The translations under genes were made by a program, and so were the position numbers. Shown here one piece after another: positions 16,478 through 36,998 of a stretch of DNA of 64,000 nucleotides (positions are counted from its first letter, which is position 1; each line of letters opens with the position of its first letter). The stretch comes from Terrirhizobium terrae. Lineage in GTDB: Bacteria; Pseudomonadota; Alphaproteobacteria; Rhizobiales; Rhizobiaceae. The DNA is taken from contig NZ_CP104990.1 in NCBI RefSeq assembly GCF_030323265.1, positions 186,001 through 250,000 on the forward strand, written 5' to 3'. The notes beneath the pieces are model-generated. The model saw nothing but the letters and a program-made list of their open reading frames with translations. It ran no database searches and was not told where the DNA came from.

Positions 16478-16490
16478 TCTCTTGTATTTT

Positions 16491-16521
16491 TTGTCGACAA
16501 CGCTTCTGGAAGGAGTATTCT
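16491..16521 (+). promoter_or_regulatory. promoter with overlapping GntR-type operator
   Basis: TTGTCGACAA at 16491-16500 is a perfect 10-bp palindrome of the form common for FadR/FCD-type GntR proteins. Its left half doubles as a -35-like TTGTCG, with TATTCT at 16516-16521 (19-base spacing) as a -10. Binding there would block the promoter of the deaminase gene. Confidence 0.5.
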
Positions 16522-16532
16522 CTCTTCCAGAA
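16504..16532 (+). promoter_or_regulatory. 9-bp inverted repeat in the deaminase leader
   Basis: TTCTGGAAG / CTTCCAGAA, 11-base spacer, overlapping the proposed -10 element. It could be a second operator or an RNA hairpin at the 5' end of the message. Confidence 0.45.
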
Positions 16533-16578
16533 AACGCGGGATGTCATGCCCGTCAGTTGCTTCAAGGAGTTCTGAGAG

Positions 16579-17546
16579 ATGAAGGCCAGTATCTTTTCCG
16601 GCGTCGTGCCGGCCCTGATGACCCCTGCAAGGCGGATCGCAGCCCGGATTTTGACGCGCTGGTCGCCAAGGCCAAGCAGCTGATCGCAGCCGGCATGTCG
16701 GCCGTCGTCTATTGCGGTTCGATGGGCGACTGGCCGCTTCTGACGGATGCGCAGCGCATGGAAGGCGTCGAGCGCCTGGTCAAGGCCGGCATTCCGGTCA
16801 TCGTCGGCACGGGTGCGATCAACTCGGCTTCCGCCGTGGCACTCGCCGCCCATGCCCAGAAGGTTGGCGCCCAGGGCCTCATGGTCATCCCGCGCGTTCT
16901 TTCCCGCGGCTCTGTCATCTCCGCCCAGAAGGCCCACTTCAAGGCGATCCTCTCGGCCGCACCAGATCTGCCGGCCGTCATCTACAACAGCCCCTATTAC
17001 GGCTTCGCCACCCGCGCCGACCTGTTCTTCGCGCTGCGCGCCGAACACCCGAACCTCGTCGGCTTCAAGGAATTCGGCGGCCCTGCGGACATGCGCTATG
17101 CGGCCGAAAACATCACCAGCCGCGATGATGACGTCACCCTGATGATCGGCGTCGATACCGCCGTCTTCCACGGCTATGTCAACTGCGGCGCGACGGGTGC
17201 GATCACCGGTATCGGCAATGTCCTGCCGAAGGAAGTGCTGCATCTGTGCAACCTCGCCCAAGCGGCTGCTGCCGGCGACGCCGACGCCCGCGCCCGTGCC
17301 AAGGAACTCGAAGAAGCGCTCGGCGTGCTTTCCTCCTTCGACGAAGGCCCGGATCTGGTTCTCTACTTCAAGCACATGATGGTACTGAAGGGGGACAAGG
17401 AATACGCGCTGAACTTTATCGAGACCGACGTGCTGAGCGACAGCCAGCGAGGTTATGTCGAAGCGCAGCTCGCGCTCTTCGATAAGTGGTACGCCGACTG
17501 GAGCAAGCTGCCTGGCGCGGTGCAGGCCTGCAAGGCTGCGGCCTGA
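16579..17546 (+). CDS. DapA-family deaminase (pyrroline-4-hydroxy-2-carboxylate deaminase-like), one frameshift
   Basis: Joined product of about 322 residues, starting MKASIFSGVVPALMTP with AAGGAG 8 bases upstream. The frame breaks near 16622 where CCCC should be CCCCC; restoring it gives TPCKADRSPDFDAL. It belongs to the dihydrodipicolinate synthase/N-acetylneuraminate lyase family. The catalytic tyrosine (VIYNSPYYG) and Schiff-base lysine (LVGFKEFGG) are present, as is the GSMGDWPLL loop. In hydroxyproline catabolism such enzymes deaminate pyrroline-4-hydroxy-2-carboxylate to alpha-ketoglutarate semialdehyde. The neighbouring D-amino acid oxidoreductase and epimerase support that role. Confidence 0.8.
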
Positions 17547-24635: not shown

Positions 24636-24914
24636 ATGGGCAAGTTTGCAATGACAGATCGGGAGCCTCCCGCGACAGGTATCCGCTTCACTGTAGGCCG
24701 CGATGTCAGTGGTCGCTGGATCGTCACCGATACGCTCGGCAAGGTCGGCGGACTGTTCACCGACCGCGCCTCGGCCGTCCATTTCGCCATGTTCGAGAGC
24801 GATCACACGCCGGGCGCCGTCTGGTGCCTGCCTGAGCATGTCGTCGTCAAATTCGGCGAGGCCTTCGACGGCCGCAGGCTCAGCGCGACCAGCAGGGTCG
24901 CCGGCAGGGCGTAA
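24636..24914 (+). CDS. small hypothetical soluble protein
   Basis: 92 residues, with TAAGGAGAGATCCCG as a strong ribosome binding site 12 bases after the previous stop. It contains IRFTVGRDVSGRWIVTDTLG and GGLFTDRASAVHFAMFES, which look like a compact beta-rich domain seen in short rhizobial hypotheticals. There is no membrane segment. Function is unknown. Confidence 0.65.
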   Translation: MGKFAMTDREPPATGIRFTVGRDVSGRWIVTDTLGKVGGLFTDRASAVHFAMFESDHTPGAVWCLPEHVVVKFGEAFDGRRLSATSRVAGRA

Positions 24915-25434: not shown

Positions 25435-26400
25435 TCAGAGCCAGCCGGTCTTCTTGAAGCGATAGTAGAGAATACCGCAGAACATAATGATCACAGCGAG
25501 TACGACATAATAGCCGTACTCGGTCTTGAGCTCCGGCATATTCTCGAAATTCATCCCGTATATGCCGGCCACGGCCGTCGGCACGGCCAGAATTGCAGCC
25601 CAGGAGGCAAGCTGCCGGGTCATGACGCCCTGCCGCTGCTGTTCCAGGAGGTTGGAGGCTTCGAAGACCGAGGTCATGACTTCGCGAAGCCCGCCGACCA
25701 TGCTTTCCACCCGCCGGATGTGATCGAAAACGTCGCGAAAATAGGGTTTGGCATGCTTGTCGATGCAGGGGAGGTCGAGATTGACCAGCTTGCCGACAAG
25801 CTCCGACATCGGCCCCAGAATACGGCCGAAAAGGATCAGCTGCCGCCGCAGGCGGAAAAGCCGGCGGATCTGGTCGCGCTCAAGGAAATTGGCGAGCATC
25901 TTCTGCTCCATTTCCAGAACCCGGTCCTCGATCGTCTGGACGGTCGGCAGATAGCCGTCGACGATGAAATCGAGAATGCCGTGCAGCACGTAGTCCGGTC
26001 CCTGTGCCAGAAGCCTCGGCGAGGCCTCGAGCTGCGCGCGGACACCGCTATGGGTACGCATCGAGCCGTGGCGGACGCTGATGATATGGTGGCGTCCGAC
26101 GAAGATCGCGGTCTCGCCATAACAGATCTTGTCGCCTTCCAGATGCGCGGTCTTGGCCACGACGAAGAGCTGCTCGCCATAGACCTCGACCTTGGGGATC
26201 TGGTGGGCATGCAGCGCATCCTCGACCGCCAGCTCATGCAGTCCGTAGGTCTTTGCCAGGATCTTCAACTGGTCGTCGGTCGGCTCGTGCAGGCCGATCC
26301 AGACGAATTCATCGCCGGTGAGCGCCGGACATTGGTCTTCGATCGAGAGCGCGCGGCCCCGCTTGCCGTTGCTGTAGACGTAGGAGGCGACGACGGTCAT
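25435..26400 (-). CDS. corA: CorA-family magnesium/cobalt transporter
   Basis: 321 residues with a large N-terminal cytoplasmic domain. Two C-terminal membrane helices flank the selectivity motif YGMNFENMPE near residue 284; the chain ends FKKTGWL. It forms a pentameric inner-membrane channel for Mg2+ or other divalent ions. It lies 17 bases downstream of kup on the same strand, so the two cation transporters are probably co-transcribed. Confidence 0.92.
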   Translation of the reverse strand: MTVVASYVYSNGKRGRALSIEDQCPALTGDEFVWIGLHEPTDDQLKILAKTYGLHELAVEDALHAHQIPKVEVYGEQLFVVAKTAHLEGDKICYGETAIFVGRHHIISVRHGSMRTHSGVRAQLEASPRLLAQGPDYVLHGILDFIVDGYLPTVQTIEDRVLEMEQKMLANFLERDQIRRLFRLRRQLILFGRILGPMSELVGKLVNLDLPCIDKHAKPYFRDVFDHIRRVESMVGGLREVMTSVFEASNLLEQQRQGVMTRQLASWAAILAVPTAVAGIYGMNFENMPELKTEYGYYVVLAVIIMFCGILYYRFKKTGWL

Positions 26401-26417: not shown

Positions 26418-28331
26418 CTAGATCGCAACCTGTTCGCCGAGTTCAACGACGCGGTTCGGCGGCAGCTTGAAATAGGCGGACGGATCGATGCCGAAATCGG
26501 CGAGCACGATATAAAGCTTTTCCTGCCAGCGGGGCAGGCCGGTATTCGGCGTCTCGATCAGGTTGCGCCGTCCGAGATAGAAGGAGGTCTGCATGATCTC
26601 GAACTTGAAGCCCTTCTTCTTGCAGACGGTCAGCGCCTTCGCCACGTTTGGCTCGTCCATGAAGCCGAAGGTGATGTCGAGGCGGATGAAGCGCTTGGAC
26701 AGCCGTGTCATCTCGACCCGTTCCTCGGCCGGCACATAGGGCTTGTCCTGCGTCCAGATGGTGAGGATCACGTTCTGCTCGTGCAGGACGTGGTTGTGCT
26801 TGAGATTGTGCAGCAGGACGGCCGGCGTGCGATCGGGCACGCTGGTCAGGAAGATCGCGGTCCCGGGCACGGTCGCCGGCGCGCTGGCGGACTCCCGATC
26901 GATCGAGCTTTCGATCGACGCGATGAAGGTTTCGAGCGGGATATCGTTCTTGGCCGTTTTTTCCTTCAGGTACCGTGACCCCTTGGTCCAGGTCCACATG
27001 GTCAGCATGATGACCAGCGCCAGCATGACCGGCACCCAGCCGCCGTCATGAATCTTCAGTAGGTTCGCGGCCAGGAACACAGCCTCGATCGCGAAGAGCG
27101 GTCCGAGGATGATGGCTGCGGTGATTGCCTTGTAACCCCAGACGGCGCGCAGGAACTGGAACGACATGAGAGTCGTCACCACCATCGCGCCGGTGACCGA
27201 GATGCCGTAGGCAGTTGCCAGCGACTCGGAATCGCCGAAGGCGAAGATCAGCACGATGACGCCGAGGAACAGCAGCATGTTGACGGCCGGAACGTAGATC
27301 TGCCCGGTATTCGTTTCCGAGGTGAACTTGATCGCCAGACGCGGCAGGAAGCCTAGATGGACGGCCTGGCGTGCAAGCGAGAAGGCGCCGGTGATGACGG
27401 CCTGGCTGGCGATGATCGTCGCCATGGTCGCAAGGATGACCATCGGCAGCAGCGCCCATTCCGGATAGAGCAGGTAGAACGGGTTCTCGATCGCCGACGG
27501 ATCGGTCAGGACCAGAGCGCCCTGGCCGAGATAGTTGAGCGCCAGAGCCGGGAAGACCAGGATGAACCAGGCCCAGCTGATCGGCTTGCGGCCGAAATGG
27601 CCGAGGTCCGCGTAAAGTGCCTCCGCGCCCGTCACCGTCAGGAAGACCGCGCCGAGCACGATAAGCCCGGCCCAGCCGGCATGGGTGATGAACCAGAGCG
27701 CGTTGATGGGATTGAGTGCTTCCAGGATCGTCCAGTCGTCGCCGATATGGATGAGCCCGCCCCAGGCCATGGCCAGGAACCAAACGACGGTGATCGGGCC
27801 GAAGAATTTGGCGACGGCTTCCGTACCCTTCGACTGCACCATGAACAGGCCTACCATGATCGCGGCCGAGAGCGGCAGCACGTAGTCGGAGAAAGCGGGC
27901 GTCACCAGCTTCATGCCTTCAAGCGCCGACATGACCGACAGGGCAGGGGTAATCATCGCATCGCCGATGAAGAGTGCCGCGCCGATCAGGCCGGCGAAGA
28001 ACAGCACGGGCATATAGCCGCCAGTCTTCTTCATCAGAAGCGCCAGGAGAGACAGGGTCCCGCCCTCGCCATCATTGTCGGCACGCAACAGGAAGAGGAC
28101 ATATTTGACCGTCACGATGACCGTCAGCGTCCAGACCATCAAGGAGATCAGGCCGATAACATGCTCCGGCTGCACCCCGTTGGCGGCGAAAGGTCGAAGC
28201 GACTCGCGAAAGGCATAGAGAGGGCTGGTCCCGATGTCGCCGTAAACGACCCCCACCGATCCAATCAGCAATCCGAGGAACTTGCGGGTCTCCGATTGGC
28301 TATCCGGAGCGGCGGCATGCGTAGCAGTCAT
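26418..28331 (-). CDS. kup: Kup potassium uptake protein
   Basis: About 637 residues with roughly 12 membrane helices and a C-terminal cytoplasmic domain. The N-terminal signature [19 protein letters not shown] is near residue 30, followed by [18 protein letters not shown]. It imports K+ with protons across the inner membrane. I chose the ATG at 28331 ([10 protein letters not shown]) since GGAGATCTT lies just upstream. Rhizobial genomes often carry several kup paralogues. Confidence 0.93.
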
Positions 28332-28500
28332 AAGATCTCCAGGCACAAGGCCAAGATGGTGTGTTGCCGCGCAATATGGTGCACTGCCGCGGCCAAGGCA
28401 AATGGATGCTTATAAGACTTTGATGTCATAGTCTCCTCTCCCCTATCGAAATCCTATGCGACACGGATCACCTTGTTTCTGTCAAACAGGAGCAAGTGAC

Positions 28501-29406
28501 ATGACACCGTTCCATCGCGCCGCCCGTCAGACCTTTACCCCTCTGCTCACGCCGTTCGGCGAAAAGGGCGTGGATCTCAAGGCTTTCAACGCGGCGATCG
28601 ACCGGCAGATCATCGCCGGGACGGACGGCATTGTCGTTGGCGACGCGATCGGTGAGGGCCCGGTCCTCACCGCCGAAGAACACGATGCGCTGCTGCGCGC
28701 CGCAGTCGGCCATGCCAAGCCGCATCTCAGCATCATCGCCGCGACCGGCACGAATTGCACGCGCACAACGATTGAACGGTCCCGTCGCGCGGAAGCTCTC
28801 GGCGCCGATGCGCTGCTGGTCACGGTTCCCTATTATTCCAAACCGACGCTTGCCGGTGTGGTGGATCATTTCCGCCAGGTGGCGGCCGCAGTCGGCCTGC
28901 CGATCCTGATCGACGACGACCCGGGCCGCACGGCGAAGGATTTCGGCCAGGCCTTGCTGGAGTCGCTTGCCGATTGCCATGCGATCGCCGGTGTCTGCCA
29001 TGGCGCGGATCGCCTTGCCCATTTCGCCGGCCTGCCGTCCAAGCTCGAAACCCGTTTCCTGCATCTGACGCGCGACGATGCCCACCTGCCGCAATTTCTG
29101 GCGCTTGGCGGCAATGGTGCGATTTCGCCCATTGCCAACATCATTCCGTCGCCGATCCAGACCATGGTGGGACTGCGCGGCAGCGTCGACACATGCAGTT
29201 CCTTCGGCATGGCCGTATCCGGCGCCATTGCCGCGCTTGGGCAGGACGACATTGCAGCCCTCAAGGAAGCAGCGTCCTTCATTCATCAATATCCGGCGGA
29301 TATGCGCCTGCCCCTGGTGCCTGCCGAACCCGAGACCGTGATCCGCATCCGCCACGCCTTTGCACCGTTTGCCCGTTGCGAGACCGGCAGACCGATGGCG
29401 GCGTGA
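28501..29406 (+). CDS. DapA-family protein lacking the catalytic lysine
   Basis: 301 residues with the full (beta/alpha)8 DapA-like frame, and AGGAG 8 bases before the ATG. Key residues are altered. The usual GTTGE loop reads GDAIGEGPVL, the YNVPGRT tyrosine motif reads LIDDDPGRT, and the Schiff-base lysine of IxGxKEATG is cysteine (IAGVCHGAD). The structural motif GGNGAISPIANIIPS is kept. It therefore cannot run classical Schiff-base aldolase chemistry and may be a regulator, a binding protein or a new enzyme. The frame is intact with ordinary base composition, so it is not a decaying gene. It stands alone between kup and an AraC gene. Confidence 0.85.
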   Translation: MTPFHRAARQTFTPLLTPFGEKGVDLKAFNAAIDRQIIAGTDGIVVGDAIGEGPVLTAEEHDALLRAAVGHAKPHLSIIAATGTNCTRTTIERSRRAEALGADALLVTVPYYSKPTLAGVVDHFRQVAAAVGLPILIDDDPGRTAKDFGQALLESLADCHAIAGVCHGADRLAHFAGLPSKLETRFLHLTRDDAHLPQFLALGGNGAISPIANIIPSPIQTMVGLRGSVDTCSSFGMAVSGAIAALGQDDIAALKEAASFIHQYPADMRLPLVPAEPETVIRIRHAFAPFARCETGRPMAA

Positions 29407-29500: not shown

Positions 29501-29517
29501 GATGATAATTGTCATCA
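29501..29517. promoter_or_regulatory. candidate iron-responsive box
   Basis: ATGATAATTGTCATCAT is a near-palindrome about 145 bases upstream of the AraC regulator. It contains TGA-N9-TCA, the pattern reported for rhizobial RirA (IRO) boxes, and also resembles a Fur site. Control of siderophore genes by iron would be expected. Confidence 0.45.
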
Positions 29518-29663
29518 TAATATGACCGTGTCGATTGCAGGCCAATGGGTGTCGCATCGACAGATTGCCATCCATTGCCCCGTCCGTTCTCCGTTGTGAG
29601 TTCGGAGGGCCTGAGATCGTGTCGTGACGGCGGGTAGATGACGAATTGAGCTATTGGCATTCC

Positions 29664-30539
29664 ATGGAATGGAGCACGGAGGGCATTCAGGTGGTTGCCC
29701 CGCCGAAGTGGCGCTGCTTTGACGGTCTCGTCACGGTCCATTGGCAGGCGGAAAGCCAGCTCGGCGCGAAGGGCTACTATCTCGCCGAAGACCCGCGCAT
29801 CATGATCTTCTTCAATGACGTGTCTTCGCGCGTGCGGATTTCCAACGAAAACGGAGATTTTTCACGCAATTACCGGCCGATGACACGCGCGATATACATA
29901 CCGGCCGGCGTGCCCATGTGGACGACCAGCCGTTGCATGCACCGCTTCTCGCATCTCAATCTTCATATGCACCGGGACAGGCTGTTGCGTTTCCTGTCGC
30001 CTTCGGTCGGGCGATCCGCTGCGCTGACGGCCCTTCGCCGCCCGGTCGAGATCCAGGATATCGGCCCGATCGAGACCCTGGCAGGTCTGCTCGTGGACGA
30101 GATCGCCGCCCCGTCGCGCCACGCCGTCTATGCCGAAAATCTGGTCGGCAGCATTGTCGCCGGGCTGCTCAATATCCCGTCCGAGGACGACAAGCCACAG
30201 AATGGCCGGCTGACCCAGGCGCAGATGAACAAGCTGATGTCCCGCGTCGATGCCTGCGGCGACTACAAGCTGACGATTTCCGAAATGGCGAAGACTGTCG
30301 GACTGTCGGAAAGCTGGTTTGCAAATGTCTTCAAGCAGACCACCGGCAAGAGCCCGCTTCAGTGGCAATTGGCCAAGCGTATAGAGCTGGCCCAGAAACT
30401 GTTGCTGGAAAGGGATCTCTCCGTTGCGGAGATCGCGGTGCAGCTCGGCTTCACCGATCAGGCCCACCTGACCAAGGCATTCAGACAGGTCGTGGGAGAT
30501 ACGCCGGCCGCATGGCGGCGGATACAGATCGCCCACTGA
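29664..30539 (+). CDS. AraC-family regulator of siderophore uptake
   Basis: About 291 residues. The C-terminal double HTH domain begins near TISEMAKTVGLSESWFANVF and includes LAQKLLLERDLSVAEIAVQLGFTDQAHLTKAF. The N-terminal effector domain (GYYLAEDPRIMIFFND, YIPAGVPMWT) is like those that sense ferric siderophores. It is convergent with the TonB receptor gene and separated from it by a strong terminator. The ATG at 29664 is preferred; a TTG at 29646 is in frame. AraC proteins of this type activate the adjoining receptor and transporter when their siderophore is present. Confidence 0.85.
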   Translation: MEWSTEGIQVVAPPKWRCFDGLVTVHWQAESQLGAKGYYLAEDPRIMIFFNDVSSRVRISNENGDFSRNYRPMTRAIYIPAGVPMWTTSRCMHRFSHLNLHMHRDRLLRFLSPSVGRSAALTALRRPVEIQDIGPIETLAGLLVDEIAAPSRHAVYAENLVGSIVAGLLNIPSEDDKPQNGRLTQAQMNKLMSRVDACGDYKLTISEMAKTVGLSESWFANVFKQTTGKSPLQWQLAKRIELAQKLLLERDLSVAEIAVQLGFTDQAHLTKAFRQVVGDTPAAWRRIQIAH

Positions 30540-30589
30540 GAACGAGTGGCGCGCACCATTCCTGCAATTCTTGACGTTCTCTTACGAGA

Positions 30590-30619
30590 AAGGCCCGCTC
30601 GGTTTAACGAGCGGGCCTT
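30590..30619. terminator. bidirectional intrinsic terminator
   Basis: Perfect 12-bp stem AAGGCCCGCTCG / CGAGCGGGCCTT with a GTTTAA loop, between the convergent AraC and TonB-receptor genes. It is followed on both strands by short T-containing tails (GATCTTG on plus, TTTCTCG on minus). Confidence 0.8.
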
Positions 30620-30627
30620 GATCTTGT

Positions 30628-32772
30628 TTACCAGGTCTGACGCAGCGTTGCGTAGATAGCCCGGCCAGGATTGTAATATTCCGATCCGAAGCCGCCCTGC
30701 GCGACGTGCTTTTCGTCGAAGAGATTGGTGGCATTCAGCTGGAACGTGGTGTTCTCGCGGATCTTGTAGCTGAAGGCTGCGTCAAAGATCACGCTGGAGT
30801 CCGTCTTCGAAGTGTTGGCGTCGCTGAAGTAGTACGAGCTCATGTATCGGCCGCCGAAACCGAAGGTCATATCACCCAGGAAGCCGTTGGCCGGTACGGT
30901 GTAGTTGACCCAGGCGGATGCCTGATGCTCGGGGATGCGTTCGGGAGTATTGCCTTCGTTTACGCCCGCGTTCTCGACGATTTCTCCGTCCAGATAGGCA
31001 TAGGCCGCCGTCAGGCTGATATTGTTTGTGATTTCCGCTTTGGCTTCCAGCTCGAAGCCTCTGACGCGAACTTCACCCGTCGTTGTTTCGGTGAACGGCG
31101 GATTGGGGTTCGTGTAGCTGATGTCGTTCTTGGTAAGATCGAACACCGAGGCCGTGAACAGCGCAGGAAATGCCTCCGGCTGATATTTCACGCCGATCTC
31201 GTACTGCCTGCCGCGTTCCGGCTTGTTGCCGTTTGTCGGAGGAGCGACGGATTCGGAATAGCTGGCATAGGGCGCGATCTCATCGGTGACCTTGTAGGAG
31301 ACGCCGACGCGCTTGGTAAACTCGCTGAGATCTGTCTCGCTGGCCGATGCTCCGGTAAACGCGTTCCAATCGTCCCGCGAAATATCCATCCAGTCATTGC
31401 GGGCCCCAAGCGAAACGGTCAGCCTTTCATCAAAGGTGAAATTCTGCTGAGCGTAGATCGCCTTGGTGTTCTGCTTCACCCGTTCGGTGGAGTAGGGGCC
31501 AGGATAGTCGGGAGCACCGAAATAGACCGGATCTGCCCAATTGATGGGATCCGCAGGCATGTAGTAGGTGACACCGTCGGAATCTGTCTTGCTGTACTCG
31601 AAGCCTGCGAGCGTCGTGCTGTCGAATTGGTCGGCGCTGAAGTCATACTTCAGATGGCTGTTGATGATGAAACGCTCTTCCGAACTTCTGTTTCCATAAT
31701 AATCCCGGTTGGCGAGCGTATCGCTGATAACCGGGTCTCCGGAAATATAAGCGTAGCCGAAGCCCGTGTTGGACTTGCTGTAACGGGCTGTGGAGCCGAA
31801 GCTCAGGCCATTGCCAAAGTCGTGGTCGAACATCACGCTGACCGTGTTTCGGTTCGTGTCGTCGTAATTATAGTCGGGCTCGCCGAGGAACAGTTCCCGG
31901 TCCAAGTCCCTGTTGACGGGATGTCCGCCTGCGCCGGGGGAGCCATCCTTGTTCAGGTGGTCATAGGTCACCGTCAGGCTGGTGACGTCGGTCGGGCGCC
32001 AGGTGAGGCCACCCATGAAGAACTTCTCGTTGTTCTGACCATAGTCATATTCAGTGTCGGCATCGCGGACCTTCCCGGTCAGGCGATAGGAAAGCGTATC
32101 ATCTTCGGTGATGTTGTCGCCGAAATCAAAACCTGCCTCTTTGTGGCTGAACGATCCACCAGTCGCATATACCTCACCGAAGCGCTCGCTCTTAGGCCGC
32201 TTGGAGACGTAGTTTATGGAGCCGCCGGGATCTGCGACGCCGAAGATCGTCGAATTGGCGCCCTTCAGCACTTCGACACGTTCATAGGCATAGGGCTCTT
32301 CTCGAATTCCTCCGAAGGGGTCGCCGACGGCAATGCCATCCCGATAGACGAAGGCATCGAACCCACGGATCCTGACATAATCGAAGCGGTCGTCAGTGCC
32401 GTAAAAGTCGGTGGTGACGCCTGGCGTATACTGGAGAATCTGCTCGAGATCCTGCGCGGCCCGTTCCTGGATTTCCTTTGCGGTGACGATGGAGACGGAG
32501 GCAGGCGTCACGAGAATATCGGTCGGGATGCCGCTACCAACAGTCGTCTGGGTCGCAACGATGGAATTTGAATCGTTGCTGGTATCGAGGACATTACCGG
32601 TACCCTGGATGACGATCGGTGCGAGCGTCGTATCCGAGTTCGCGGCTTCGGCCTCCTGGCCGATTGCAAAACGAGGCGCGAGCGCGACGAGCGCGGTGCA
32701 GCCGAGAAGGATCGCTTTGCGGTAACGCTTAAGGGATCGTTTCGTGGTTCCGCCGGTGGTTTCCATGTCCAT
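30628..32772 (-). CDS. TonB-dependent siderophore receptor
   Basis: About 714 residues. It has a long signal peptide (KAILLGCTALVALAP, cleavage near IGQEAE), then the plug domain with PASVSIVTAKEIQERAAQDL, GVTTDFYGTD and YVRIRGFDAFVYRDG near 120-150. A 22-strand barrel ends in a terminal aromatic strand (YATLRQTW). The FhuA/FpvA-like type imports ferric hydroxamate or mixed siderophores across the outer membrane. I favour the third in-frame ATG (32772), since GGAAG is 6 bases upstream; 32778 is also possible. It is divergent from a FecBCDE-like ABC transporter. Confidence 0.92.
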   Translation of the reverse strand: MDMETTGGTTKRSLKRYRKAILLGCTALVALAPRFAIGQEAEAANSDTTLAPIVIQGTGNVLDTSNDSNSIVATQTTVGSGIPTDILVTPASVSIVTAKEIQERAAQDLEQILQYTPGVTTDFYGTDDRFDYVRIRGFDAFVYRDGIAVGDPFGGIREEPYAYERVEVLKGANSTIFGVADPGGSINYVSKRPKSERFGEVYATGGSFSHKEAGFDFGDNITEDDTLSYRLTGKVRDADTEYDYGQNNEKFFMGGLTWRPTDVTSLTVTYDHLNKDGSPGAGGHPVNRDLDRELFLGEPDYNYDDTNRNTVSVMFDHDFGNGLSFGSTARYSKSNTGFGYAYISGDPVISDTLANRDYYGNRSSEERFIINSHLKYDFSADQFDSTTLAGFEYSKTDSDGVTYYMPADPINWADPVYFGAPDYPGPYSTERVKQNTKAIYAQQNFTFDERLTVSLGARNDWMDISRDDWNAFTGASASETDLSEFTKRVGVSYKVTDEIAPYASYSESVAPPTNGNKPERGRQYEIGVKYQPEAFPALFTASVFDLTKNDISYTNPNPPFTETTTGEVRVRGFELEAKAEITNNISLTAAYAYLDGEIVENAGVNEGNTPERIPEHQASAWVNYTVPANGFLGDMTFGFGGRYMSSYYFSDANTSKTDSSVIFDAAFSYKIRENTTFQLNATNLFDEKHVAQGGFGSEYYNPGRAIYATLRQTW

Positions 32773-33079
32773 GTTCATCTTCCAACGTTGATCCGACGAC
32801 GACAGGCCCGTGGGAGTCAGGCCCGCAATCGATATCTGGCGGGGAAAAACATGGATGCATAAGGCTGGCCCAGCGATCGAGGTTTCCTCGATCCGGATGA
32901 ACCGAACGCTTCATATTTGTGTCCCCAATGTGGCCAATAACCTGACCGCTTTTATCCAGTATTGTAATTTTTTGGAGTTTTGTAGGATTCAACGGAAAGA
33001 TAATAAAACTTTTTGGTACCCATCGGTGCTGCGGTTGACTGAATCTGATTAACCTGAAACTGGAAGTCCACTTATCGTC
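32773..33079. other. divergent promoter region of the siderophore genes
   Basis: About 300 bases without a gene, between the receptor (minus) and the binding protein (plus). The central 100 bases (32935-33055) are AT-rich, with TTGACT near 33034 and runs such as TTTTTTGGAG. No clear operator was recognised. Confidence 0.4.
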
Positions 33080-34098
33080 ATGTCAGGCGGAGGCTTCGCC
33101 ATGTTTTCTTCGTTTCGCGCTGTGCTGCGCGCGATTGTCCTGTTCATTCTTTTCGCTTCGGCCGGATTTGCCAGGGCGGAAGAGGGGTAACCTATCCGAT
33201 CACCATCAAGCATGCCTTCGGCACCACGGTGATCGAGAAGAAACCGGTACGCGTGGCAACGGTCGACTGGGCGAATTACGAGGTCCCTCTGGCGCTCGGC
33301 ATCGTTCCCGTCGGTTTCGCCAAGGCCAATTTCGGCGATGAGGACGGCGATGGGCTGCTGCCCTGGGTGAAGCAGCGGCTGACCGAGCTCAATGCCGAAA
33401 CGCCGGTGCTCTTCGATGAAGGCGACGGCGTCGATTTCGAGGCGATGGCGGCTGCGCGTCCGGACGTCATTCTTGCCGCCTATTCGGGCATCAGCAAACA
33501 GGACTACGAGACGCTCAGCCAGATCGCGCCGGTCGTAGCCTATCCCGAGGCGCCCTGGTCGACCGACTGGCGCACGATGATCAAGATGAACAGTCTCGGC
33601 CTTGGCATGCCCGCCGAAGGGGACGCACTGATCGCAAAGCTGGAGGCGGAGATTGCCGAAACGGTCGCCGGACATCCGGAACTGCGCGGCAAGTCGGCGA
33701 TGTTCATCACCCATCTCAACGCGTCCGATCTGAGCACCATCAATTTCTACACGACCAACGACACGCGGGTGAAATATTTCGCCGATCTCGGCCTGAATTC
33801 TCCCAAGAGCGTGCTGAAGGCCTCGCAGCCCGGCAAGTTCGCCGGTTCCGTCAGCGCCGAGCGGATCGACGATTTCGACGATGTCGATATCGTCGTGACC
33901 TATGGCGACGAGAGACTGCTTCACGCCTTGCTGGCCAATCCACTGACGGCGAGAATGCCGGCAGTTCAGCGCGGCGCGCTGGTGACGCTCCCGGGCGGTA
34001 CACTGGGGACGGCCGCCAATCCGACGCCGCTTTCGATTTCCTGGGTACTGAAAGACTACGTTGAGCTGCTGGCCAACGCCGTCAAGAAAGCCCAATGA
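33080..34098 (+). CDS. ferric siderophore ABC transporter, substrate-binding protein, one frameshift
   Basis: Joined product of about 340 residues. A signal peptide (AVLRAIVLFILFASAGFARA) is followed by VTYPITIKHAFGTTVIEKKP and a FepB/FecB-type domain (MAAARPDVILAAYSGI, VAYPEAPW). The frame breaks near 33187, where GGGG should be GGGGG. It is periplasmic, delivering the siderophore to the FecCD-like permeases. The start may be 33080 or 33101 (both in frame). It overlaps the next permease gene by 4 bases. Confidence 0.85.
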
Positions 34099-35159
34099 CA
34101 TCCGACAGCATAACATCTTCCCGCGCGGGCTCACGCAAGGCCGCTCCGCCGCCGATGCGCAATCGATCGAACCGCACACGAAGCTTCTGGCTGCTGGGCG
34201 TTATCGCGCTTCTGGGGCTCCTGTGCTTCGCCTCGGTAACGATAGGCACGCGCGACGTGGCGTGGGCTGACATCGGGGCGGCGCTCCAGGGCCATGTCGA
34301 CAGCATCGGCCAGGCGGCAGTGGCGCTGCGCATTCCGCGCACCGTGCTCGGCCTGCTCGCCGGTGCAGCCCTCGGGCTTGCAGGTGCCATCATGCAGGGC
34401 GTGACACGCAATCCGCTTGCCGATCCCGGCATTCTCGGCGTCAACATGGGCGCCTCGCTTGCCGTCGTCGTGGGCGTTGCCTGGTACGGCATGACCTCCG
34501 CCGAGGCCTATATCTGGACCGCGATCACAGGCGCCGGTATCGCCGCCGTCTTCGTCTACACCATCGGCTCGCTCGGGCGGGGAGGGGCGACACCCCTGAA
34601 ACTCGCGCTTGCCGGTGCCGCGACCTCCGTCGCCTTTTCCTCCATGGTCATCGCCGTCGTGCTGCCACGCGCCGACATTGCCGGCGGCATCCGCTCCTGG
34701 CAGATCGGTGGGATCGGCGGCGCGACGTTCGAGCGCATCGTGCCGGTTCTGCCCTTTCTCGCGGTCGGCTTTCTCATCAGCCTCCTGTCTGCGCGCAAGC
34801 TGAATTCGCTGGCGCTCGGGGATGATCTCGCGGCCGGGCTTGGCGAACGCGTCGCGTTTGCGCGCGCGACGGCCTCGCTCGGCGCCATCCTGCTCTGTGG
34901 TGCAACGACCGCGGTCTGTGGCCCGATCGGCTTTCTCGGCCTCGTCGTGCCGCATGTCTGCCGCCTGCTCGTAGGCGTCGATCATCGCTGGCTCTTGCCT
35001 TTCTCGGCGCTCGGCGGCGCCTGTCTCCTGCTCGCCGCCGATGTCGTCGGGCGCATTGCCGCGCGGCCGGCCGAGCTCGATGTCGGCATCGTCACTGCGC
35101 TGGTCGGCGCGCCCTTCTTCATCTGGATCGTCAGGCGTCAGAGGGTGCGCGAACTGTGA
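34095..35159 (+). CDS. FecCD-family siderophore ABC permease
   Basis: 354 residues with about nine membrane helices. Conserved segments are LRIPRTVLGLLAGAALGLAGAIMQGVTRNPLADPGILGVN near 75-115 (given in parts in the family) and GPIGFLGLVVPHVCRLLVG near 275. It forms half of the heterodimeric inner-membrane channel. The start overlaps the binding-protein stop (ATGA), and the end overlaps the second permease (GTGA). Intact. Confidence 0.92.
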   Translation: MTSDSITSSRAGSRKAAPPPMRNRSNRTRSFWLLGVIALLGLLCFASVTIGTRDVAWADIGAALQGHVDSIGQAAVALRIPRTVLGLLAGAALGLAGAIMQGVTRNPLADPGILGVNMGASLAVVVGVAWYGMTSAEAYIWTAITGAGIAAVFVYTIGSLGRGGATPLKLALAGAATSVAFSSMVIAVVLPRADIAGGIRSWQIGGIGGATFERIVPVLPFLAVGFLISLLSARKLNSLALGDDLAAGLGERVAFARATASLGAILLCGATTAVCGPIGFLGLVVPHVCRLLVGVDHRWLLPFSALGGACLLLAADVVGRIAARPAELDVGIVTALVGAPFFIWIVRRQRVREL

Positions 35160-36196
35160 CTATGCCATCCTCCACCCTCGACCGGATCGTCACCGACCGC
35201 CGCCGCCGCCAGCGCGGCTATCGCCTGGCGATCGCCATATTGCTGCTTCTCGTCATCGGCGTCTTCGCGCTGACCCTGTCGCTCGGCCAGTCCTTCACGC
35301 CGCCCGGAGACGTGATCCGCGTGCTGCTCGGCCATGACGTTCCGGGCGCGAGCTTCACCGTCGGAACACTACGGCTGCCGCGTGTTGTCCTTGCCATTCT
35401 CGCCGGCCTGAGCTTCGGGCTGGGCGGCGTGGCTTTCCAGATCATGCTGCGCAATCCGCTGGCGAGCCCGGACATTATCGGCATCAGCTCAGGCGCCAGT
35501 GCTGCCGCCGTGTTCGCTATCGTCGTCTTGTCGCTGAAGGGGCCGATCGTTTCCGTTATGGCGGTGGTTTCCGGCCTCGGCGTTTCGGTGCTGGTCTACG
35601 GCCTGTCCTTCCGCAATGGCGTGGCAGGCACGCGGCTGATCCTGGTCGGGATCGTTGTCTCGGCCATGCTCGAAAGCGTCGTCGCCTATATCCTCTCCCA
35701 GGCCCCAGCCTATACGCTGCAGGAGGCGATGCGCTGGCTGACGGGTAGCGTCAACGGCGCGCAACTTAATCAGTCCCTTTCGCTGCTGCTTTCGCTCGTC
35801 GTCTTCGGCGGCCTGCTGCTCAGTCGGTCGCGGGATCTGGAAGCGCTGCGGCTCGGCGACGACATGGCAGCGGCCCTGGGCGTCCGAGTATCGGCAACCC
35901 GGGTGATCGTCATCATCGCCACCGTCGGCATGATTGCCTGCGCCACTGCGGTGACGGGTCCGATCGCCTTTGTCGCCTTCTTGTCCGGTCCGATCGCGGC
36001 GCGGCTCATCGGCAACAGGGGATCGCTTCTCATTCCTTCGGCACTCGTCGGGGCGGTTCTTGTCGTGGCCGGTGACTATGTCGGCCAGTTCCTGCTGACG
36101 ACCCGCTATCCCGTCGGCGTCGTCACCGGCGCGCTCGGCGCTCCCTATCTCATCTACCTGATCATCAGGGTCAACCGGGCCGGAGGTTCGCTATGA
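35156..36196 (+). CDS. FecCD-family siderophore ABC permease, second subunit
   Basis: 346 residues, about nine membrane helices. Family segments are LRLPRVVLAILAGLSFGLGG, FQIMLRNPLASPDIIGISSG and GPIAFVAFLSGPIAARLIG. It starts at the GTG at 35156 overlapping the previous stop, or at the ATG at 35162. It overlaps the ATPase gene by 4 bases. It is the partner of the preceding permease. Confidence 0.92.
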   Translation: MTMPSSTLDRIVTDRRRRQRGYRLAIAILLLLVIGVFALTLSLGQSFTPPGDVIRVLLGHDVPGASFTVGTLRLPRVVLAILAGLSFGLGGVAFQIMLRNPLASPDIIGISSGASAAAVFAIVVLSLKGPIVSVMAVVSGLGVSVLVYGLSFRNGVAGTRLILVGIVVSAMLESVVAYILSQAPAYTLQEAMRWLTGSVNGAQLNQSLSLLLSLVVFGGLLLSRSRDLEALRLGDDMAAALGVRVSATRVIVIIATVGMIACATAVTGPIAFVAFLSGPIAARLIGNRGSLLIPSALVGAVLVVAGDYVGQFLLTTRYPVGVVTGALGAPYLIYLIIRVNRAGGSL

Positions 36197-36998
36197 CCAG
36201 CCATTCCCTGGATATCAAGCATCTGTCGGCCGGCTATGGCGACACCGATATCCTTCGCGATCTCGACCTTCAGGTGCCGCAGGGCAGGATCACCGTGATC
36301 GTCGGCGCCAATGCCTGCGGCAAATCTACCCTGTTGCGCACCATGTCGCGGTTGCTTTCGCCGAAACATGGCGAAGTGCTGCTCGACGGCAGGTCGATTC
36401 ACCGTATGCCGCCGCGGGAACTCGCCCGCACGATGGGGCTTTTGCCGCAGTCGCCGATCGCGCCGGAAGGCATCACGGTGGCCGATCTCGTCAGCCGCGG
36501 CCGCCACCCACACCAGAGCCTGTTCTCCCGCTGGACGCGCAAGGACGAGGAGGCCGTCGAGGCGGCGCTCGACGCGACCAAGACCGCCGATCTTGCAGAG
36601 CGCTCGGTCGACGAACTGTCCGGCGGGCAGCGCCAGAGGGTCTGGATCGCCATGGCGCTTGCCCAGGAGACCGACATCCTCCTGCTCGACGAACCAACGA
36701 CATTTCTGGACATCAACCATCAGATCGAGGTTCTCGATCTCCTGACCGACCTCAACCATACGCGCGGCACGACTGTCGTGATGGTGCTGCACGACCTTAA
36801 CCTGGCGGCACGCTATGCGGATTATCTGGTGACGTTGCTCGATGGCCGCGTGCACAGGGCGGGGAGCCGGAAGAGGTGCTGACCGAGGACAATGTTCGGG
36901 AGGTCTTCGGGCTCGACAGCCGGATCGTCACCGACCCGACCTCGGGCCGACCGATGATGCTTCCGCTGGGGCGCCATCGTATCGCTGCATCGCCTTGA
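36193..36998 (+). CDS. siderophore ABC transporter ATPase, one late frameshift
   Basis: Joined product of about 268 residues. Walker A is GANACGKSTLLR near residue 38, the signature ELSGGQRQRVWIAMALAQ is near 141, and Walker B is ILLLDEPTTFLD. The frame breaks near 36862 (GGGG where GGGGG is needed). Restoring it gives AGEPEEVLTEDNVREVFGL and a proper C-terminus ending at TGA 36996-36998. Without the correction the protein stops at 36882. The FecE/FepC type powers uptake of ferric siderophore. Confidence 0.88.

Follow-up and report, generated by a model that had tools for sequence, protein, structure and literature searches.

A DapA-family barrel without its Schiff-base lysine, and a small partner protein, near potassium-uptake genes in Hyphomicrobiales

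The locus and the DapA-like protein

We studied a window of 64,000 nucleotides from Terrirhizobium terrae (contig NZ_CP104990.1, positions 186,001 to 250,000). The features that concern us are as follows, in window coordinates.

24636..24914, + strand: small partner protein of 92 aa, motif GxWxVxDxxGxxGGxF...A..FA..E, undescribed family, the sole copy found in the genome
24915..25434, no strand: gap between the partner gene and corA, which holds kdpA, kdpB, kdpC and kdpD in G041, G014, G007, G027 and G037
25435..26400, - strand: corA, magnesium/cobalt transporter (PF01544, 198 bits)
26418..28346, - strand: kup, potassium uptake transporter, divergent from the DapA-like gene with 154 bp between (PF02705, 575 bits)
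28501..29406, + strand: DapA-like barrel protein without K161 or Y133, 301 aa
28639..28656, + strand: GDAIGE loop, residues 47-52 (canonical VGTTGE or CGTTGE)
28912..28914, + strand: codon of D138, in the place of the catalytic Tyr133
28996..28998, + strand: codon of C166, in the place of the Schiff-base Lys161

A sequence-only reading of this DNA had described a clean frame with a good ribosome binding site at 28501-29406, and we confirmed both; the ATG at 28501 is preceded by AGGAGCAAGTGAC. A second in-frame ATG lies upstream at 28456, and the start MTPFHRAARQ, common to the protein and its nearest orthologue, favours the ATG at 28501. The same reading had seen the lysine of KEATG as Cys, the tyrosine of YNVPGRT as Asp and the GTTGE loop as GDAIGE. 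Alignment against canonical Hyphomicrobiales DapA bore out all three replacements: K161 corresponds to C166, Y133 to D138, and G43-T44-T45 to D48-A49-I50. In this alignment N134 is also replaced, by D139, and Y107 (Y112), R138 (R143) and the GE glutamate (E52) are kept. Of the catalytic triad T44/Y107/Y133, only Y107 is left, as Y112; the others are A49 and D138. In the excerpts of PMC3369909 used here, mutation of any one residue of this triad severely reduces activity, and mutation of K161 largely impairs that of DHDPS.

We looked for a substitute lysine that could take over from the end of strand 6, and ruled it out, as columns 160-170 are free of lysine in the window protein and in 62 relatives. 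The sole lysines that are invariant in the window clade are K114 and K255, and both are also Lys in 10 of 10 canonical DapA rows.

The protein matched the PF00701 profile at 152.4 bits (gathering score, 22.1) and scored 161.3 bits with the NCBIfam DapA equivalog TIGR00674, under its cut-off of 206.15. An AlphaFold2 model of the barrel had a mean pLDDT of 85.9, and C166 lies near the end of a predicted strand (162-167). In a structure comparison, the predicted fold was closest to Agrobacterium tumefaciens DHDPS (4i7u) and Sinorhizobium meliloti MosA (2vc6), with Z of about 36 and 28-29% identity; for 4i7u_C, Z was 36.2 and rmsd 2.1 Å over 287 aligned residues. The window protein thus shares with DHDPS/DapA the predicted fold, PF00701, the YY pair, which lies at the tight-dimer interface in E. 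coli DHDPS according to the excerpts of PMC3369909, R138 and the GE glutamate, but K161, Y133, T44 and T45 are replaced. It is an intact DHDPS/DapA-family barrel without the Schiff-base lysine.

Two other DHDPS-family loci were observed in this genome. The window itself carries a second such gene at 16482-17546 (+ strand), which keeps the lysine (NLVGFKEFGG) and offers an in-window contrast. The only canonical dapA locus found in the genome (L196, C1:2886500-2889500) has its 5' part in three successive frames; these two frame breaks in the assembly, of which the completeness is given as 91%, could be sequence error.

Lysine-less relatives

Genome contigs were scanned with the motifs VTVPYYSK and P[VI]..DDDPxR. 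We obtained 64 loci, of which 62 were from the Rhizobium group (Rhizobium, Neorhizobium, Endobacterium and further Rhizobiales); L102 and L103, which are distant and keep the lysine, were left out. These motifs favour window-like sequences, which biases the scan, and it may have missed genomes that are very close to that of the window. A search via the partner gene instead of the motifs reached relatives that keep the lysine.

Lys161 is missing in all 62 Rhizobium-group loci, where its position holds A (19), C (14), V (14), R (10), I (4) or L (1); S, M or E stands there in other lysine-lost relatives. Tyr133 is kept in one of the 62 (L100, without the lysine), and Tyr107 in every one. All 62 frames are full-length (284-322 aa), and the closest named locus is from Rhizobium sp. 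NFR07, with 83% identity. For seven close pairs, dN/dS was 0.06-0.23, which shows purifying selection on the DapA-like protein. An isolated pseudogene is ruled out by the 62 full-length lysine-less relatives together with dN/dS well below 1.

The catalytic columns are variable where the lysine is gone. Among 50 lysine-lost tree rows, T44, Y133 and K161 were at the 80th, 68th and 76th percentiles of variability, all above the median column, and Tyr107 was invariant. This variability argues against one new chemistry common to the family. In the sub-clade of the window, D48, D138, D139, H167, G168, D192, E52 and R143 were invariant in 13 of 13 rows; thus, a specific new pocket is possible there. 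The suggestion of new chemistry made in the sequence-only reading is therefore not favoured as a family-wide statement, since the K161 position varies among A, C, V, R, I, L, S, M and E, but may survive for the window sub-clade.

Such a neofunctionalised enzyme, in which an altered mouth (D48, D138, D139, H167, D192 and Cys or Arg at 166) would carry out another, perhaps metal-dependent, reaction, is the best of the alternatives that we considered, although we regard it as unlikely. The invariant polar set speaks for it, as do the positions of these residues, which appear from the DHDPS alignment and the model to be at or near the barrel strand ends. However, other lysine-lost clades differ at several of those positions, and the old lysine position is itself mixed within the sub-clade (C in 10 and R in 3 of 13 rows).

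Three lysine-less members that were tested (L065, L081 and L122) exceed the TIGR00674 cut-off, at 240, 227 and 255 bits, respectively. A gene that bears the name dapA and a lysine-biosynthesis term in the annotation of the A. tumefaciens Ach5 plasmid pAt is a lysine-less copy, in which Val stands at K161; a partner match lies 0.4 kb and corA 1.2 kb away. These cases expose misannotation. Two Phyllobacterium plasmid copies beside a partner are likewise annotated dapA, and these keep the lysine. A tblastn search of plasmids with the window protein gave no match at E 1e-30.

The small partner protein

Clustering of neighbouring genes revealed a small gene that recurs beside the DapA-like gene. 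In the window it lies about 3.6 kb upstream, on the same strand. Within 22 rows of the partner family (A2), G26, W28, G38, G39, F41, A47, A51 and E54 are invariant, and dN/dS was 0.03-0.09 for two pairs. Searches of Pfam, NCBIfam and PDB sequences with the partner gave no match, and none of the 22 members did better than a Pfam E value of 0.05.

The predicted structure of the partner is of low confidence (pLDDT 70.8), and the best Foldseek hit of this model had an E value of 0.36. The third-ranked hit, YegP (2k8e), a small domain that we take to be the one named DUF1508, may share a beta-beta-beta-alpha outline with the partner. This is a weak lead (E 1.1, TM 0.34), with no match in sequence.

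Weaker partner homologues (L153-L156 and L161-L176) occur in several families with no DapA-like neighbour, some near kdp and others in unrelated contexts, so that the family of small proteins extends beyond the pair. In six loci of family f35 (L139-L143 and L145), the DapA-like gene is flanked by two small genes, as a second, weaker partner-like gene (43-47 bits) lies opposite the first.

Pairing of the two genes across genomes

A partner gene lies within 10 kb and on the same strand in 55 of the 62 Rhizobium-group loci, and at 0.6 kb or less in 53 of these. Among 199 family-level genomes, the partner was found in 27 (2 weak). The DapA-like gene was scored in 21 of these 199 genomes among the matches listed, by a cut-off of 303 bits that was set after viewing the list and took in the best 20 listed matches; G251, at 294.6 bits, was counted as well on account of the partner beside it. 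All 21 have the partner, at 0.6 kb or less and on the same strand in 20; the exception is the window, at about 3.6 kb. With these 21 genomes scored among the matches listed, the hypergeometric probability of the co-occurrence in the 199 genomes is 2e-23. Good partner matches without a DapA-like gene were found in G059, G126, G178 and G202 of the 199, G126 with a 42-codon remnant.

The partner was also present in 18 of 18 same-genus genomes with the DapA-like gene, although in G024 and G032 the two genes are on different contigs, and in 6 of 6 genomes reached through loci, a set that partly overlaps the same-genus one. In the adjacent pairs examined, the two genes are always on the same strand, with the partner either upstream or downstream.

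Of 397 genomes drawn from across the order, 49 have the partner. Loci of 39 were examined and gave 20 further paired genomes; the other ten, with weaker matches (G077, G381, G409, G474, G479, G502, G510, G581, G592 and G634), were outside the locus set. The total is thus at least 41 paired genomes (21 from the family draw and 20 from the order draw), and more pairs may exist. A class-wide draw of 385 genomes gave the partner in eight, namely the window genome, two others of the order and five weaker matches outside the order. We kept G197 (L129) outside the 41; its partner scores 28 bits and its DapA-like gene, with the lysine lost, 177 bits, and a kdpD match of 42% lies nearby. These data place the DapA-like gene in a family of Hyphomicrobiales DapA paralogues whose members are accompanied by a partner of about 90 residues.

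In G038 (L117 / L024), the DapA-like frame is truncated after about 140 codons and runs into partner-like sequence, and a second partner copy lies upstream of kdpABCD (L242).

That the gene is a paralogue in slow decay, retained by hitchhiking next to transporters, seems improbable to us. Frames in decay do exist (the split frame of L150, the 42-codon remnant of L126, and the truncated and fused frame of G038), and the lysine-lost rows are more variable overall. However, the 62 Rhizobium-group loci are full-length without exception, dN/dS stays well below 1 in the seven pairs, and the partner is present in all examined genomes with the gene (21 of 21 among the matches listed, and 18 of 18) while the neighbours change.

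Loss of the lysine

The lysine is kept in 18 and lost in 23 of the at least 41 paired genomes, and K161 and Y133 are kept or lost together in all 41 among the matches listed. Lysine-keeping paired paralogues from other Hyphomicrobiales (among them L133, L136, L146, L157, L205, L207-L210 and L214-L216) group with the window protein in the tree, have an adjacent partner as in the window family and in some cases lie near kdp, but they differ in retaining K161, Y133, T44, T45 and R138.

The paired family is apart from canonical DapA in the tree (100/99), more weakly in a larger tree (73/43). A second tree was built without L181, L190 and L191 (mis-framed or partial) and L129 (long branch), and a third without 12 further near-duplicate or outgroup rows; L150, with its split frame, was out of all trees. 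The lysine label changes 4 times on the best tree and 3-5 times on 200 bootstrap trees, 0% of which have a single change, and the starred branches force at least 3 changes. Repeated loss is therefore favoured over a single origin but is not proven, as an AU test did not reject one lysine-lost clade (p 0.164). K161 and Y133 went the same way in 3 of 3 independent pairs, too few for significance. The catalytic residues appear to have gone together, in what was probably more than one event.

As 18 of the 41 paired members, among the matches listed, keep both Lys and Tyr, the pairing appears to predate the loss of the lysine. These members may be active enzymes; thus, an enzymatic role is likely to be ancestral. 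The link to kdp also looks older than the loss, since it is seen in the lysine-keeping L135, L136, L146 and L148; among the matches listed, 7 of 18 lysine-keeping and 12 of 23 lysine-lost paired genomes have kdp or kup nearby.

Potassium-uptake genes around the pair

KdpA, KdpC, KdpD, Kup and CorA were assigned by Pfam, and KdpB from a P-type ATPase match and its place in the operon. Five close relatives (G041, G014, G007, G027 and G037) have the order partner, kdpA-B-C-D, corA, kup and DapA-like gene, and G004 has just a kdpD match between the partner and corA. In the window and its nearest relative (L040), the order is partner, corA, kup and DapA-like gene, and kdp is absent from the gap; the kdpA of the window genome is on another contig. 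A kup gene divergent from the DapA-like gene is also found in L040-L046 and G037.

Among the matches listed, 19 of the 41 paired genomes have kdp or kup no more than about 5 kb away (7 of 21 from the family draw and 12 of 20 from the order draw), and 8 of the 19 belong to family f35 and share one arrangement, so that these are not 19 independent events. At 20 canonical dapA loci from the same family draw, all of which keep the lysine, neither kdp or kup nor the partner is near (0 of 20 each), a control that counts dapA neighbourhoods and not the presence of kdp elsewhere in those genomes. The difference between 19 of 41, among the matches listed, and 0 of 20 has a Fisher p of 9e-5, with rows that are not independent. 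KdpD matches of 30-33% (L060, L075, L152, L170 and L213) were excluded from the counts. No kdp or kup was found in the fetched flank of 22 of 41 paired loci among the matches listed, nor in that of 53 of the 62 Rhizobium-group loci; the other nine have kup or kdp within 10 kb. The flanks are not alike, and absence of kdp is weak evidence in G223, G361 and G636, which lie near contig ends. The linkage recurs in several families with differing gene orders. For partner-only loci fetched from the draws, kdp is near in 7 of 26, and on plasmid pRACO34Ab of Rhizobium sp. ACO-34A, a partner annotated as hypothetical lies directly upstream of the annotated kdpFABC with no DapA-like gene.

Other neighbours were considered and set aside. 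Those of the R. leguminosarum group (ketopantoate-reductase-like and DUF1883 by Pfam, and genes that are presumably rarA-, degQ- and ilvD-like) were read as a conserved chromosomal site rather than as a clue to function, other clades being without them. Directly downstream of the DapA-like gene, window positions 29646-36882 hold a siderophore-uptake-like block, with an AraC regulator, a TonB-dependent receptor and a periplasmic binding protein assigned by Pfam; the two genes that come next were judged permease-like from their sequence. An AT-rich near-palindrome lies at 29502-29518 and, we presume, resembles an iron box. A siderophore pathway was set aside because L041-L046 carry different genes downstream; L040 has the block.

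The barrel might be a structural partner only, a chaperone or scaffold for a small protein that acts elsewhere, with potassium neighbours by chance or ancestry. That the pair persists at 22 of 41 loci, among the matches listed, where the fetched flank lacks both kdp and kup would agree with this. We consider it quite improbable, since the linkage is recurrent in several families and gene orders and the partner on its own also lies near kdp, in the 7 of 26 loci and on pRACO34Ab.

Proposed role

A residual DHDPS-like activity, with pyruvate still condensed without the lysine, would be helped by the kept Y107, R138 and GE glutamate and by E. coli K161 mutants that reportedly keep some activity, but it is the least credible of the alternatives: Thr44, Thr45, Tyr133 and Lys161 are gone together, the T44, Y107 and Y133 mutants in the excerpts of PMC3369909 are severely impaired, and a canonical dapA locus exists elsewhere in the genome, albeit with a broken frame in the assembly.

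The reading that we prefer, at about even chances of being right, is that of an oligomer with the DapA fold in which Schiff-base (aldolase/DHDPS) chemistry is lost and which serves with its partner as a non-catalytic component of potassium homeostasis, probably sensing or controlling uptake via Kdp and/or Kup. The barrel would no longer form Schiff bases, so could not act as DHDPS, and would still form oligomers; it and the partner would bind each other, and the pair would act on potassium uptake through a ligand or ion bound in the altered barrel mouth. The basis for the potassium role is gene order only. The sequence-only reading had offered a repurposed barrel, a sensor or a partner protein. 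The first and the last gain support from the kept fold, purifying selection, the joint loss of K161 and Y133, and the constant small partner gene, often among potassium-uptake genes; a sensor would fit the gene context.

KdpFABC-KdpDE and Kup share the locus with the DapA-like gene and its partner, and in relatives kdp follows immediately after the partner. According to excerpts of the S. fredii Kdp paper (PMC9239096), rhizobial Kdp control runs via PtsN-KdpD-KdpE, and neither 'dapA' nor 'dihydrodipicolinate' occurs in the excerpted main text. A literature search of titles and abstract starts, with partial coverage, gave nothing on a lysine-less DapA family or a DapA-Kdp link. In a more specific and quite tentative form, which we think is probably not correct in full, the barrel without catalytic residues and its partner of about 90 residues would be an undescribed Hyphomicrobiales potassium or osmotic sensor-regulator of Kdp/Kup, and the Asp/His mouth in the window clade would bind a cation or a signal metabolite.

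An intact lysine-less DapA with a small protein inside a potassium-uptake block suggests that an enzyme fold may have been reused for potassium management. A family with lysine-keeping and lysine-losing members and one partner is a natural experiment in the passage from enzyme to non-enzyme, and its genomic setting points to a possible new component of potassium control in bacteria, which is testable in standard rhizobia.
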